A stretch of DNA of 61,882 nucleotides, taken from the NCBI GenBank assembly GCA_945905925.1, contig CAMDQN010000020.1, positions 1 to 61,882 of the forward strand, written 5' to 3'. The position numbers and the translations under genes were made by a program. Position 1 is the first letter of the stretch; each line of letters begins with the position of its first letter. The notes beneath the pieces were generated by a model, which was not told the DNA's origin, did not search any database, and saw only the letters and a program-made list of their open reading frames with translations. Shown here one piece after another: positions 10,873 to 45,587 of this stretch. The stretch is from Singulisphaera sp. GP187 (GTDB lineage: Bacteria > Planctomycetota > Planctomycetia > Gemmatales > Gemmataceae).

Positions 10873-10887
10873 GGGCAGAAGAGAGTC

Positions 10888-10988
10888 GCACGAGGACGCA
10901 GACAAAGACACGATAAAGGCAGAGGAAGGAGTTCTGTAAAACACTCTGTTCTTGTGCCTTTATCGTGCCTTTGTCTGCGTCCTCGTGC
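10888..10988. repeat. 34-bp inverted repeat between convergent genes (family E)
   Basis: Arms 10888-10921 and 10955-10988 pair with a single mismatch around a 33-base loop. The arms are richer in A and T than the neighbouring genes (for example AGACACGATAAAGGC). Its place between the rpe and BBP7-like stops suggests a bidirectional terminator. Confidence 0.8.
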
Positions 10989-11038
10989 GGCTCATTCTTT
11001 GTTTTCTGTTGTAGCCAATCCTCTTGCTTCGTCTTCGT

Positions 11039-14884: not shown

Positions 14885-16372
14885 CTAGCCCTCCAGCTTC
14901 CGCGCGGCCTCGGTACAGCGGTCGAGGAGCGTTTGCTTTCGCTTCGGGTTCGCGAACCGGCCCTGCGTTTCGATCCACTCGCGCGTCTGTTCGATGAGCG
15001 CCCGCAGTGCCGTGACCGCTTCCGGTTGTCGTTGTATCGGACCGACGGCAACCGACGATGTGTGCGCGAACCCGGCGGAACCGGTGGCGCGTACCGCGAC
15101 CCAACCCGGCTCGCTGAGAGTTACTTCCGCGGTGCGGTCGCCCGACGCGACCACCTCTCCGTTCGCGACGATCTCCACGCGCGCATCAAGAGGTGATCGC
15201 AGGTTCGCTCTCGCGCTTTGTCCTTCGACCACGAGCGTGAGCAGTGGTCCCGCGCTGACGAACGTGCAGCCGGCGCGAATGGATTCGACCCAGGAAGAAC
15301 CTCTCTCCCCAACCCCCTTCCCTGATAAGGGAGGGGGAGTCAGAGAAGAATCGTCACCGTTGGCCTCGTCTTGATGTCTGCCTCCCCCTCCCTTATCAGG
15401 GAAGGGGGTTGGGGAGAGAGGTTCTTCGCGCACCCGCGCATACGTTCGCATCGCGCCGAGTTGGATCGCGTTCGAGTCCTTGCCACTCGCGCCGACGAGC
15501 GGCACCAGCACGCCCGCGTTCCACAACCGGTACACCCACGGCAACAGCGGCGCCTTGCGCGGTTTCGCGCAAACCTCGATCGCATCGATCTTCCCCAGGA
15601 TCGCGGCAACCAGCGATTCGCCACCGGTCACGCCACCGGCCGACTCGAAAGCGTCCACCCACACCACCAACCCGCCTTTGCGGTGGCACTGATCGGCCCA
15701 GTCGCACACGCCCCAGTCGTCGGAATCTTCGCCGCCGAACGTGAGCGGGAACACCGGGCGGTGCGAGTTCAGTAGCGCTACTTTCCCCAACACCGGATGC
15801 GTGTTGAAGGTGTTCACGAACACTGCATGCCCGATGCGTTCCAGCGCCGAGACTTGACCGCTGAACGCGAGCAGGTTCGGTGTGGTGGTGTAGGTGTTCG
15901 CGTCCATCGTGAGAACCGGAATCGGCGTCGCCAGCACGTTCGCCGCGTCGAGGCCTTCGGCTTGCGCTTCAAGCAGTGCCGCGTGCGGACTGATGAAGTG
16001 GCATCGCGTATCAACACTCGCCCAGTTTTCCGCACGTGAATCCGTCCAGCGCGCGATCGTGAACCGCAGTGAGATCTGCCCTACACCGAGGGTCACGGTC
16101 GTGTCGAGCGGCGTCCACTCCGGCCCCTTCGCGGCCTGAACGCGGATCGGCACACCGGCCGGCAGCGACACCTCGCACGCGCCGTCGATGTAGAACCAGC
16201 GCTCGCGCCCGACGCGCAGGTGCCCGCCGACGTCCTCGTTGCGCCCGCCGGCGAACTCCGCGGACCGGCCGAGCGGCGCGTATTGCGCCCCGTCCGGCCC
16301 GGTGACGCGCACCCGCACCGGAACCGGTTTGTTCGTCGCTGCGTCAGTGATGCGAAGGTGAACTGTGAGCAT
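14885..16372 (-). CDS. CehA/McbA-like metallohydrolase carrying an in-frame palindromic insertion
   Basis: This 495-residue protein resembles PHP-type CehA/McbA family metallohydrolases. An N-terminal Ig-like part (LTVHLRITDAATNKPVPVRV) is followed by a PHP-like body with DTRCHFISPHAALLEAQAEG and IDAIEVCAKPRK. A C-terminal module contains IRAGCTFVSAGPLLTLVVEG. The usual metal-binding H-x-H motifs are not obvious, so activity is uncertain. Between TYARV and WVESIRAGC the chain is interrupted by about 45 proline- and glycine-rich residues (EEPLSPTPFPDKGG ... LTPPPLSGKGVGERGSS). These are encoded exactly by the inverted repeat at 15294-15427. The reading frame is kept through the insertion. No signal peptide is seen. 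Confidence 0.75.
   Translation of the reverse strand: MLTVHLRITDAATNKPVPVRVRVTGPDGAQYAPLGRSAEFAGGRNEDVGGHLRVGRERWFYIDGACEVSLPAGVPIRVQAAKGPEWTPLDTTVTLGVGQISLRFTIARWTDSRAENWASVDTRCHFISPHAALLEAQAEGLDAANVLATPIPVLTMDANTYTTTPNLLAFSGQVSALERIGHAVFVNTFNTHPVLGKVALLNSHRPVFPLTFGGEDSDDWGVCDWADQCHRKGGLVVWVDAFESAGGVTGGESLVAAILGKIDAIEVCAKPRKAPLLPWVYRLWNAGVLVPLVGASGKDSNAIQLGAMRTYARVREEPLSPTPFPDKGGGGRHQDEANGDDSSLTPPPLSGKGVGERGSSWVESIRAGCTFVSAGPLLTLVVEGQSARANLRSPLDARVEIVANGEVVASGDRTAEVTLSEPGWVAVRATGSAGFAHTSSVAVGPIQRQPEAVTALRALIEQTREWIETQGRFANPKRKQTLLDRCTEAARKLEG
15294..15427. repeat. 46-bp perfect inverted repeat inside a coding gene (family C)
   Basis: Arms 15294-15339 and 15382-15427 are exact reverse complements separated by a 42-base loop. 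The arm begins GAAGAACCTCTCTCCCCAAC. The repeat lies fully inside the metallohydrolase gene and is translated in frame as two proline-rich arms. Related arms flank intergenic hairpins at 21465-21596 and 45477-45576. Confidence 0.92.
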
Positions 16373-21464: not shown

Positions 21465-21596
21465 GAAGAACCTCTCCCCCCAACCCCCTCCCCTAAGAAG
21501 GGAGGGGGAGTAAAGCAGTACACAGAGGAGCGGAACTGTGCGCCTTCTGTCTGAAGCCCCTCCCTTTTTAGGGGAGGGGTTGGGGAGGGGTTCTTC
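21465..21596. repeat. Family C inverted repeat in the pcrA/acpS divergent region
   Basis: The left arm (about 21465-21508, starting GAAGAACCTCTCCCC) and right arm (21557-21596) pair with a few mismatches around a 48-base loop. It lies between two divergent gene starts, 20 bases from the pcrA ATG, so it cannot be a gene-end terminator. The arm word is shared with 15294-15427 and 45477-45576. Confidence 0.85.
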
Positions 21597-26884: not shown

Positions 26885-26937
26885 GTTAGCCGCAAGCCGA
26901 AGGCGAGCGTGGCGGACGCGCTCGGCTTGCGGCTAAC
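26885..26937. repeat. Family A inverted repeat in the second DUF1549-DUF1501 spacer
   Basis: The left arm 26885-26909 (GTTAGCCGCAAGCCGAAGGC and following) pairs with 26917-26937. The sequence just before it on the plus strand (GTGTTCTGGTTAGC) is nearly the same as at 2716-2730 (GTGTCTGGTTAGC), so the likeness to the first operon extends slightly beyond the palindrome. Confidence 0.85.
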
Positions 26938-35327: not shown

Positions 35328-35358
35328 GAAAAATGAGAGGCACGAATCGGTCAGGACC

Positions 35359-35438
35359 AGGAGTTACGCAGTTGGTTGTTTCAGCCCTCGGAGAGGGCTG
35401 AAACAACCAAACGCCTTTCAGCCAACTGCGTAACTCCT
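35359..35438. repeat. Overlapping double hairpin upstream of the enolase-superfamily gene
   Basis: The inner stem 35372-35389 / 35393-35410 is 18 bp and perfect with a 3-base loop (core GGTTGTTTCAGCCCTC). The outer arms AGGAGTTACGCAGTTGG (35359-35375) and 35422-35438 are 17 bp and perfect. The inner and outer left arms share four bases, so the two stems cannot both form in full. It lies 47 bases before the start at 35486. Confidence 0.85.
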
Positions 35439-35485
35439 AGGAGAATCAAGAAGTAGTCGCTCAGCGTTTTCGTAGTTTACTCGAA

Positions 35486-37304: not shown

Positions 37305-37319
37305 ACGACGAACAAAGCA

Positions 37320-37453
37320 GAAGAGGATTGGCCACAAAAAGTCACAAAGAGACACAAAAAGGAAGCGACCGAGACAGAGTCGAGATCAATTCAAACTCGG
37401 CTCTTGTCTTCCTTTTTGTGTCTCTTTGTGACTTTTTGTGGCCAATCCTCTTC
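37320..37453. repeat. 46-bp perfect inverted repeat between convergent genes (family F)
   Basis: Arms 37320-37365 and 37408-37453 are exact reverse complements with a 42-base loop. The arms are A-rich on one strand (CACAAAAAGTCACAAAGAGA) and far lower in GC than the surroundings. It lies between the stops of the DUF1080 gene and the PVC giant gene. The tail word GCCAATCCTCTT also appears near the family E repeat (about 11012). Confidence 0.92.
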
Positions 37454-37461
37454 GTCTTCTC

Positions 37462-42919: not shown

Positions 42920-43660
42920 ATGATCCGAATTGAAAACGTCACGAAGCTCTACGGCCCGAAGGTCGCGGTGCAAGACCTATCGCTTCACGTCCCCGCGGGC
43001 GAACTGTTCGCGTTCCTCGGCCCAAACGGCGCCGGCAAAACCACCACCATCAAGATGCTCTGCGGACTCTTGTTCCCCACAACGGGGAGCGTCAGCATCG
43101 GCGGGTTTGATGTGCGCGCTGAGGGCGACCACGCCCGCGCGCTCGTCAGTTACGTGCCGGACCAGCCATTCCTGTACGAGAAGCTAACCGGGCGTGAGTT
43201 CCTTCAGTTCACCGCCGACCTCTACGCGATGCCAACCGACCGCTCCGCGGAGAAGATCGAAGAGGTGATCGAGTTGTTCCACCTCGACGAGTTCGTGGAC
43301 GACCTGACCGAGCGCTATTCGCACGGCATGCGGCAGCGCACGGTGTTCGCCGCCGCGCTCGTCCACGAACCGAAGTTGCTGATCGCCGACGAGCCAACCG
43401 TGGGCCTCGACCCGAAGAGCATTCGCGAACTGAAAACGCTGTTGCGCAAGCTCGCGAGCGATGGCACGACGATCTTCCTCAGCACCCACACACTGGACAT
43501 CGCGCAAGAACTAGCCGACCGCATCGGCATTCTGGACCGCGGCAAACTCCTCGGCTGCGGCAACATGACCGACCTGCGCAAGCAGGCGAATCAAGATGGA
43601 AGCCTGGAAGACCTGTTCATGAAGATCACAGAAGAGACGTCAGCAGAGGTGCCCGTTTAG
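42920..43660 (+). CDS. ABC transporter ATP-binding protein
   Basis: This 246-residue ATPase has all motifs: Walker A GPNGAGKTTTIKM near residue 38, a Q-loop region SYVPDQPFLYEKLTG, signature RYSHGMRQRTVFAAAL (the usual L-S-G-G-Q is S-H-G-M-R), Walker B LLIADEPTVGLDP and the H-loop STHTLD. It is of the ABC-2 exporter class (CcmA/NodI-like). The permease gene follows after 97 bases that hold a strong inverted repeat. The TAG stop lies in that repeat's left arm. Confidence 0.93.
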   Translation: MIRIENVTKLYGPKVAVQDLSLHVPAGELFAFLGPNGAGKTTTIKMLCGLLFPTTGSVSIGGFDVRAEGDHARALVSYVPDQPFLYEKLTGREFLQFTADLYAMPTDRSAEKIEEVIELFHLDEFVDDLTERYSHGMRQRTVFAAALVHEPKLLIADEPTVGLDPKSIRELKTLLRKLASDGTTIFLSTHTLDIAQELADRIGILDRGKLLGCGNMTDLRKQANQDGSLEDLFMKITEETSAEVPV

Positions 43661-43722
43661 CGTTCGACCTGGAGGGGCGTTTAGCCTTCGCGCCCCCTCC
43701 GGGTCGAACGCTGAACGGGCAC
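43649..43722. repeat. Inverted repeat overlapping the ABC ATPase stop (family H)
   Basis: Arms 43649-43679 and 43691-43722 pair with few mismatches (GTGCCCGTTTAGCGTTCGAC against GTCGAACGCTGAACGGGCAC). The ATPase stop TAG (43658-43660) is inside the left arm. It sits between co-transcribed genes and could attenuate permease expression. Confidence 0.85.
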
Positions 43723-43757
43723 GTCTTGAATGAACTTCCGTCGATGGAGAGTACGCG

Positions 43758-45473
43758 ATGGGCGCCGAACTTCCCGCTGTCGCCGATCAGGGCGCGCTGT
43801 TTCGGCGGCTCCGCTCGCGGCTGTTCCGCAACGGGCTGCGCGTCGCGATGGAGAACGGCCTCGCCCGGCTGCTCACCATGATCGCCACCAGCGCCGTCGT
43901 GGCCGCGTTCACGTTCGCCGTCAGTCTGTACCTGTTCAACCAGCTCGCGACCAACAACATCACGCTCAAAGGCGGCATCGTCGAAGCGCTCTTCGACATC
44001 CTGTTCTTCACGCTCGGCACGATGCTCATCTTCTCGACCGGCATCATCCTCTACGCGAGCCTCTTCACCAGTCCGGAGGCGCGATTCTTACTCTGCTCGC
44101 CGGCACGCGCCGACCAGATCTTCGCGATGAAGTTCCAGGCCGCGGTGCTGTTCAGTTCGTGGGGGTTCGTGATCCTCGGTGTGCCGATCTTCGTCGCCTA
44201 CGGCATCATGTCCGGCGTGCCGTGGTACTTCTACCCGCTGCTGCCGCTGTACCTGTTTGGGTACGTGCTCCTGCCGGGTTCCGTATCCGCCGCGGGGTGC
44301 ATTCTTCTTGTGCGGTACATGCCGCGGAACCGCAAGCAGTTCTTCGCGTTCGTGGGGTTGGTGCTCGCGCTCGTGCTGCTGTTCTGGGCGTACCGAATCG
44401 CGATCACGTTCAAACGGTCGATCATCACCAGCGGGCGCGAACTCGACGACCTCATCGGTCAGTTCGACCTCATGCGGAGCGGGGTCGCGCCAAGCCACTG
44501 GATGACCCGCGGTGTGATGGCCGCGGCCCGTGGCGACTTTGAAGCGGCCCTGCTCCCGCTCGCGCAGGTCTGGAGCAACGGGCTGCTGTTCTACCTGTTC
44601 GCGGCATTCATCGCGAAGCGTGTCTACCGCACGGCATATGATCGAATCTCCGCGTTCGGGCGCGGCAAGAAGATCTACAAGACGAGTCCGCTCGACCGGC
44701 TCATGGAATCGCTCGTGTTCTACCTCGACAAGCGCACTCGCGTACTCGTCGTGAAGGACTTCCGCACGTTCCGGCGCGACCCGACGCAGTGGGCCGTCCT
44801 CGCCATCTTCGGCGGGCTGATGATGCTCGGCGCGAGCAACTTCAGGCAGTATTATTCCGCCGACCTGGGCGTGATGGACAAGTACGCGATCAGCCTCATG
44901 AACCTCAGCGGCACGGCGATTCTGCTCTGCGCCGGGTTGAGCCGGTTCATCTTCCCGCTGATCTCGCTCGAAGGGCGGAAGTTCTGGATCCTGGGCCTGA
45001 CGCCGCTGAGCCGCGATCAAATCTTGTGGGGGAAATTCGCGTTCGCCGCGACCGGTTCGCTGCTGATCGCGGAGACGCTCATCTTGACCAGTGACGTGTT
45101 GCTCACGCTTCCGGTGGAAGGGTTGCTGCTGCACGCGGTCGCGGTCGCCGTGATCGCGATCGGACTGAGCGCGCTGAACGTGGGATTGGGTGCGTACCTG
45201 CCGACGTTCCGCGAAACGGACCCGTCGAAGATTGTTGTGGGTTTCGGCGGGACGGTGAACATGGTGGTGGGCCTCGCGTTCCTGGTCGCCGTGATCGGGA
45301 CAATGGTGGTGCCGTTCCACGTGGCACAACTCGCGCAGCGCGCGACCCAGGGAGCGGTGAAGATCAACCCCTGGGTGTATGCGGGGATGCCGGTGGGATT
45401 GATCGTGGGCGCGCTGGCGATCGTGCTGCCGCTGCGCTCCGGGGCGCGGTCGTTGCGCGAGATGGAGTTCTGA
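43758..45473 (+). CDS. ABC-2 type transporter permease
   Basis: This 571-residue inner-membrane protein has about 12 hydrophobic helices, for example FTFAVSLYLFNQLATNNITL, ILFFTLGTMLIFSTGIILYA, YPLLPLYLFGYVLLPGSVSA, FVGLVLALVLLFWAYRIA, VAVAVIAIGLSALNVGLGA and MVVGLAFLVAVIGTMVVPF. A soluble segment near residue 300-330 contains LDKRTRVLVVKDFRTFRRDP. It is the membrane partner of the ABC ATPase; the pair should export an unknown substrate. It ends a few bases before a family C hairpin that probably terminates the operon. Confidence 0.85.
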   Translation: MGAELPAVADQGALFRRLRSRLFRNGLRVAMENGLARLLTMIATSAVVAAFTFAVSLYLFNQLATNNITLKGGIVEALFDILFFTLGTMLIFSTGIILYASLFTSPEARFLLCSPARADQIFAMKFQAAVLFSSWGFVILGVPIFVAYGIMSGVPWYFYPLLPLYLFGYVLLPGSVSAAGCILLVRYMPRNRKQFFAFVGLVLALVLLFWAYRIAITFKRSIITSGRELDDLIGQFDLMRSGVAPSHWMTRGVMAAARGDFEAALLPLAQVWSNGLLFYLFAAFIAKRVYRTAYDRISAFGRGKKIYKTSPLDRLMESLVFYLDKRTRVLVVKDFRTFRRDPTQWAVLAIFGGLMMLGASNFRQYYSADLGVMDKYAISLMNLSGTAILLCAGLSRFIFPLISLEGRKFWILGLTPLSRDQILWGKFAFAATGSLLIAETLILTSDVLLTLPVEGLLLHAVAVAVIAIGLSALNVGLGAYLPTFRETDPSKIVVGFGGTVNMVVGLAFLVAVIGTMVVPFHVAQLAQRATQGAVKINPWVYAGMPVGLIVGALAIVLPLRSGARSLREMEF

Positions 45474-45476
45474 AGA

Positions 45477-45576
45477 ACCTACCCCCCCAACCCCCTCCCT
45501 GAAGGGAATCAGGGAGAAAGAATCTGCTCGCTGCGTTCGTGGGCGCCCCTCCCTTCCCTTCAGGGAGGGGGTAGGT
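45477..45576. repeat. Family C inverted repeat at the end of the ABC operon
   Basis: The left arm 45477-45508 (ACCTACCCCCCCAACCCCCT and following) and right arm 45555-45576 share a perfect core, CCCCCTCCCTGAAGGGA. It lies between convergent stops (45473 and 45588), fitting a bidirectional terminator. Confidence 0.8.
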
Positions 45577-45587
45577 CGCCTTCGCCC

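Follow-up and report, generated by a model that had tools for sequence, protein, structure and literature searches.

A mobile palindrome family that is probably tolerated as coding sequence in Gemmata genomes

The window analysed here, a stretch of 61,882 nucleotides, contains a carrier gene on its minus strand (14885..16372), an ORF of 495 amino acids for a PHP-like putative metallohydrolase. A palindromic element of 134 bp (15294..15427, no strand assigned) lies in frame within this ORF, where it corresponds to residues 316-360. The first arm (15294..15339, plus strand, 46 nt) consists of a tip and a hairpin of its own (CCCCCTTCCC...GGGAGGGGG). A loop of 42 nt (15340..15381, no strand) separates it from the second arm (15382..15427, minus strand, 46 nt), which is its identical reverse complement. 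When one mismatch is allowed the arms grow to 51 nt and the loop is reduced to 32 nt. No stop occurs anywhere in the element along the frame of the carrier ORF. An earlier note, made from the sequence alone, had described a perfect 46-bp inverted repeat with a 42-base loop in frame at 15294-15427, with arms and loop read without a stop for about 45 residues. Both claims held, with translation itself still inferred. The hairpins that it had listed at 21465-21596 and 45477-45576 held as related sequences. The former is a second family copy of 132 bp (21465..21596, no strand) between coding sequences on opposite strands, and the latter is a third, degenerate copy of the ...CCTACCCCC subfamily (45472..45578, no strand) in noncoding sequence, both according to codon scoring. 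In total the window has 14 inverted repeats (arms of ≥15 nt, ≥88% match), and three shuffles in 200-bp blocks gave none. By eye, other palindromes at 2725-2785, 26885-26937 and 43645-43726 match the repeats that flank two Y1_Tnp genes of the window's own genome; they look like ordinary REP/RAYT pairs and, where scored, are not in frame. Long palindromes of further families, with arms of 22-54 nt, are found at 37315-37458, 10883-10993 and 35357-35440 in noncoding stretches or at gene edges.

The carrier gene is matched in 54 of 61 genomes of the taxonomic family and in all 19 genomes of the genus, the window's own genome being counted. The protein had no match in Pfam at 1e-5 or in NCBIfam at 1e-20. 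A Foldseek search of the PDB gave weak matches to PHP-type enzymes, for example EndoQ (5zb8), with a best E value of 1.9e-3. The earlier label of metallohydrolase is weakly supported by these results and is no more than a possibility. An AlphaFold model built with 45 sequences has a mean pLDDT of 91.3 and a pTM of 0.89, and only residues 319-357, which are the insert, fall below a pLDDT of 50. The model predicts that the insert is disordered and that the rest of the protein is ordered.

The element is one member of a family that is dispersed and has been copied. Searching the own genome with the element as DNA gave at least 84 matches at about 40 places, a lower bound as 40 of 147 candidates were scored. 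The tip pattern was matched 66+54 times, compared with 2+2 times for its reversed control. All members share a plan in which the tip GAAGAACC is followed by a C-rich stretch, a 9-bp hairpin and a variable loop, and then by the same parts in reverse, so that the family ends read GAAGAACC...GGTTCTTC and each arm is a hairpin, as in the plan of a REPIN. The sequence examined comprised the window and 100 stretches around the matches (467,933 bases). Paired copies measure from 52 to 179 bp across 101 rows and mostly about 90-165 bp; 24 unpaired arms, partly chance matches, were excluded from the census of paired copies. On direct reading, the consensus 46-nt arm contains neither GTAG nor CGTC on either strand. 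Tip matches were found in 13 of the 19 genus genomes and none in the other six, with 132 in the own genome (G000), 68 in G064, 48 in G070, 46 in G061 and 30 in G062, down to 3 in G043; the reversed tip gave 0 to 2 per strand.

Support for the arm hairpin comes from 85 distinct 46-nt arms that were picked by their likeness to the consensus (≤9 mismatches). The 9-bp hairpin is paired in 97.0% of cells, and this value drops to 65-77% when the partner is slid. Changes on both sides of a pair occur in 18 cells, where the shuffles averaged 3.1. These changes are confined to two base pairs and the number of such pairs was equalled by 81 of 500 shuffles, therefore the support is only modest. Two 143-bp copies on different contigs (L131 on C101 and L132 on C10) are 100% identical and have different flanks, and the family must therefore have moved. 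The 21 copies that retain both tips show no target-site duplication: 20 of them share ≤2 bases at the tip and one shares 3, and offsets of 1 to 4 gave none. A large inverted duplication, perfect where it was checked, was also observed on contig C81 (L115, G000:C81:10600-18700), with one family arm on each side; it may be real or an assembly artefact.

A genome-wide search for copies, which the earlier note had proposed, was run and gave 100 distinct paired copies, 41 of them in frame inside ORFs scored as coding. One copy (L222) was counted twice among the 101 rows, so that 42/101 rows is the same as 41/100 distinct copies. In the rows other than the 42 in-frame ones, the frame is shifted (10) or has a stop (3), or the copy lies between coding sequences on opposite strands (12), has coding sequence on one side (29) or is noncoding (5). 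Gene status in this census is derived from a codon-score heuristic and not from a gene caller. Where both flanks are coding in the same direction, 42 of 55 rows (41 of 54 distinct copies) are open and in frame and 13 of 55 are shifted or stopped. The expected proportion, derived from 46 intergenic copies, is 13.2% (p 2.5e-26). Other palindromes in the same ~468 kb (arms ≥18 nt) are in frame in only 4 of 59 cases (Fisher p 1.3e-6 versus the family), five further C-rich palindromes having been left out of this comparison set. The in-frame excess of family copies is thus established. It reflects selection on the genes and not an aim of the element, because only survivors are counted. In-frame copies showed no additional freedom from stops, with 108 of 252 phases open compared with 109 of 276 for intergenic copies (p 0.48), and for this reason the element has not been shown to be adapted for coding. 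Among the 42 rows, 31 read the 5' arm in phase 0, which typically gives EEPLPPTPSPKKGGG, and the other 11 read it in phase 1, typically as KNLSPQPPPLRREGE; for the 3' arm a single phase (typically PPPFLGEGVGGRGSS) accounts for 36 rows.

The inserts lie within conserved proteins. For the 40 inserts besides that of the window, Pfam domains were found on both sides or across the insert in 28, on one side or undecided in 8 and not at all in 4; L119 and L241 were judged from the left-over part of the profile, and the two sides of L109 are different domains. Carriers include SMC, UvrA, RarA, RecD2, RecO, SelB, NuoL, a polyprenyl synthase, QueG, a SpoU methylase and a carboxyltransferase. Ten carriers were compared with NCBIfam, and eight matched the expected model above the cut-off, RarA matched below it and the window protein did not match. 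The SMC insert (592-634) falls inside the hinge domain (532-672). In UvrA, residues 569 and 619 on either side of the insert align to the adjoining residues 628 and 627 of structure 9gxk. Similarly, RarA residues 374-437 correspond to 231-243 of 3pvs and SelB residues 199-254 to 166-174 of 5lzb.

The earlier note had expected an alignment of orthologues to show a clean insertion that is absent elsewhere, and had held that the claim would fail if every orthologue carried the segment. The expectation was too simple, since 10 of 19 genus genomes have a longer loop, and the refuting case was not met, since 9 of 19 have a short one. At the level of the taxonomic family, two of 29 other orthologues (G043 and G038) have a longer loop at the insert site and the rest lack the segment. 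Within the 19 Gemmata genomes, the window's own included, the loop is short in G016, G056, G066, G067, G068, G069, G072, G073 and G075. Eight of the ten longer loops look like the same C-rich superfamily in both peptide and DNA. Besides the own genome, longer in-frame inserts of C-rich appearance are present in G061, G062, G063, G070 and G071; in G062 and G063 several palindromes are tandem or nested, and the G061 insert, scored as a single ungapped inverted repeat, is not significant (p 0.09). The contigs of G064 and G065 stop within a C-rich-looking insert. The loop of G074 has a different palindrome, and the 26-aa loop of G043 has no significant palindrome (p 0.23).

Four of the 41 sites had their loops compared across Gemmata: that of the window gene and those of UvrA, NuoL and QueG, which were picked for conservation. 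An ungapped inverted-repeat score of ≥13 was reached in 31 of 67 scored species-loops, or 27 of 63 without the own genome; by site the counts are 5/16 for the window gene, 7/16 for UvrA, 8/19 for NuoL and 11/16 for QueG. For comparison, this score was reached by 5 of 334 control windows of 150 nt taken from other parts of three of these gene sets. Five loops were left unscored because of contig ends, anchors or a run of N, and UvrA of G065 and G074 and QueG of G069 and G071 were left out for want of a usable locus. As openness was a condition for picking the ORFs, a shifted gene might be missed. At all four sites the same protein loop also holds palindromes in other species. By eye, some of those in QueG, NuoL and the window gene of one species appear to have no relation to the C-rich type (among them GGATTCGGG repeats, GAGTGCGG repeats and ACCGCGACCGTCAGGGAG), and all those observed at the UvrA site are C-rich. 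Twelve arm words were tested and four were found solely at their own site; several other-type words were found again at other loci with ≤2 mismatches, and these palindromes therefore look dispersed. The UvrA inserts of G000, G061, G062 and G063 look homologous, which suggests that an insert can pass through speciation in frame. The UvrA loop is 6 aa long in five species, and in G016 and G056 it is a spacer that contains no palindrome; an exact empty site at the DNA level was not available for comparison. A second palindrome within the hairpin of a first was seen in the G062 window gene and in G075 NuoL. At L174 (G062) and L316 (G075), in different genes and in frame in both, a GGCCCTGTCAGC...GCGGGCC palindrome sits within the hairpin of a C-rich element.

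The enzyme that moves the family has not been identified, in a search of transposase genes confined to Y1_Tnp (PF01797). Matches to this domain number 80 in the 19 genus genomes. None of the 32 loci scanned is flanked by a family arm, the remaining 48 matches in these draft genomes being unscanned. Loose pattern matches occur near 6 of the 32, and by eye they do not continue into an arm. Two Y1_Tnp genes of the own genome, L036 (C29) and L037 (C99, with a match under the Pfam cut-off), have palindromes of other kinds on their flanks, which are also present in the window. G062 has 30 tip matches yet no Y1_Tnp match at the cut-off used. It is because the scanned loci lack family flanks and G062 lacks any Y1_Tnp match that the mobiliser is regarded as unidentified. 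Places with facing arms were considered as candidates; the one on C81 is the large inverted duplication and for the interval on C101 the ORFs have only been listed.

In the proposed explanation, the window segment is a copy of a mobile palindrome that is non-autonomous and consists of two REP-like hairpin units in inverted orientation, with the tip GAAGAACC and a variable loop. An enzyme not yet identified would move it in trans and leave no visible target-site duplication. A single-strand (HUH-type) process would be consistent with the inverted hairpin units and with the lack of such a duplication, which is a possible inference only. On the most economical reading, insertion would be random and probably not directed to a frame; disruptive copies would then be removed, and open copies would survive in flexible loops and inter-domain linkers. 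Gene-preserving copies may have survived because two of the three frames of each consensus arm are free of stops and give a Pro/Gly/Ser-rich peptide that is probably disordered. The carrier proteins would then be translated through the element. The type of transposase, random insertion followed by selection, translation and any retained function are all inferred, translation from the frame and its freedom from stops. There are no RNA or protein data, and with that reservation it is likely that this is a mobile palindrome family tolerated as coding sequence and surviving where genes stay open. The core claim of the earlier note, a mobile palindrome tolerated as coding sequence and resembling Rickettsia palindromic elements (RPEs), is supported.

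One alternative is that the hairpin is absent from the product owing to ribosomal bypass or RNA processing, as with the bypassing elements of mitochondria. The mRNA would indeed hold long GC-rich hairpins, and bypassed palindromes are known in Magnusiomyces mitochondria (cited in PMC6649704). However, bypass leaves frame and stops unconstrained and requires neither an open frame nor a frame-keeping length, yet 42 of 55 rows are in frame and stop-free where 13% would be expected, and similar UvrA insert peptides stay in frame in several species. Bypass or processing is thus very unlikely. It could also be argued that the window's assembly, with 251 contigs and the perfect inverted duplication on C81, has produced artefacts of assembly or frameshift, and the G061 QueG match contains two TAA codons next to a stretch of N. 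Against this, in-frame palindromes are present at one or several of the four sites in G043, G062, G063 and G075, whose assemblies consist of one to three contigs, and there is very little likelihood that a draft-genome artefact is the explanation.

It is also conceivable that these are native variable loops that are palindromic by chance, or that local template switching and not mobility has produced them. In favor of this, the QueG and NuoL loops are of similar length without a palindrome in some species (G016, G056), palindromes at the same site differ among species and 4 of 12 arm words are confined to their own site. On the other hand, the element sequence is common to many places in the genome, and one copy of 143 bp has a perfect duplicate elsewhere. 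Several of the other palindromes are also found again at further loci (≤2 mismatches), and the low rate in the control windows of three gene sets (5/334) speaks against chance. The alternative as a whole is very improbable, and for the main family a native or local origin is unlikely.

One of the known systems close to the mobile palindrome family is the RPE, although this is by analogy and no RPE sequence was compared. RPEs are palindromes of 105 to ~150 bp found in frame in genes for conserved proteins; R. conorii has 44 insertions, of which about half (19) fall in reading frames, and a guanylate kinase with such an insert is active (PMC10969869, PMC2229807). The element described here meets the size criterion at 134 bp (the family being mostly ~90-165 bp) and is likewise inserted in frame in several unrelated conserved genes, with 41 distinct copies. 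It differs in that each arm is its own hairpin, the copies are GC-rich, one family accounts for 41 in-frame copies in one genome compared with 19 in R. conorii, and three of the four loops compared hold unrelated-looking palindromes at the same place in other species. In a REPIN a hairpin unit is present twice, in inverted orientation, on either side of a spacer (Bertels and Rainey 2011, PMC3116915), a criterion that the two inverted hairpin units and variable spacer of the family meet. Unlike a REPIN/RAYT system, no family arm occurs at the 32 scanned Y1_Tnp loci. In SBW25 the most abundant 16-mers occur 1,067 times, 14 overlap genes and REPs are mainly extragenic (PMC3116915), whereas the Gemmata family is far more intragenic, with 41 of 100 copies in frame and 13 more in co-directional coding sequence that are shifted or stopped. 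Di Nocera et al. (2013) reported that most REPs are intergenic, with intragenic REPs in DNA-repair genes, including both uvrA genes of the verrucomicrobium Opitutus terrae, a relative of the planctomycetes, and different REPs at about the same recB site in two Xanthomonas species (PMC3733652). The family is similar to these GTAG/CGTC REPs in having DNA-repair genes, UvrA included, as carriers, but its consensus arm lacks either tag. It is short with terminal inverted repeats like a MITE of a DDE insertion sequence, but unlike such a MITE it shows no target-site duplication in 21 copies; in-frame MITE fusions are already known. Long inverted repeats also stay open within protein genes of nematomorph mitochondria (PMC6649704). 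There, unlike in Gemmata, both arms encode conserved residues, and the PMC6649704 passages describe no dispersed mobile family.

Coding palindromes are therefore not new in themselves, RPEs and intragenic REPs being known; what appears to be new is the family, the proportion of its copies that are in frame in one genome, and the way in which the same loops are occupied repeatedly. The open-licence literature searched described no coding palindromes in planctomycetes, the supplementary gene list of PMC3733652 not being covered, and gave nothing on cyanobacterial small dispersed repeats. The suggestion that such elements are little described in planctomycetes held to this extent, but REPs have been reported in Planctomycetes (PMC3733652). 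At the scale of one genome, the results suggest that core proteins which act in chromosome segregation, DNA repair, respiration and translation gain linkers of ~33-61 residues from selfish palindromes. Whether such linkers are neutral or used can now be tested, because the loops of related genomes are empty, occupied by the family or otherwise occupied. In a bolder reading, certain Gemmata loops are landing pads that are repeatedly occupied in frame by unrelated palindrome families, and the present evidence does not tip the balance for or against it. A resident hairpin may attract the next insertion; insertion sequences are known to target REPs (PMC1525189). If this were true, the loops of NuoL, QueG, UvrA and the window hydrolase would evolve by palindrome turnover, beyond point mutation and ordinary indels.

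Two carriers have further features. At L109 (1782-3215) a single ORF comprises a MobA-like NTP transferase domain and DUF559 with an element-derived peptide between them, and a gene fusion through the palindrome is possible. The UvrA carrier (L208, G000:C27:32540-37180) is a single open frame of ~2,380 aa with repeated UvrA-like blocks, and open frames of comparable length were found in most genomes of the genus.
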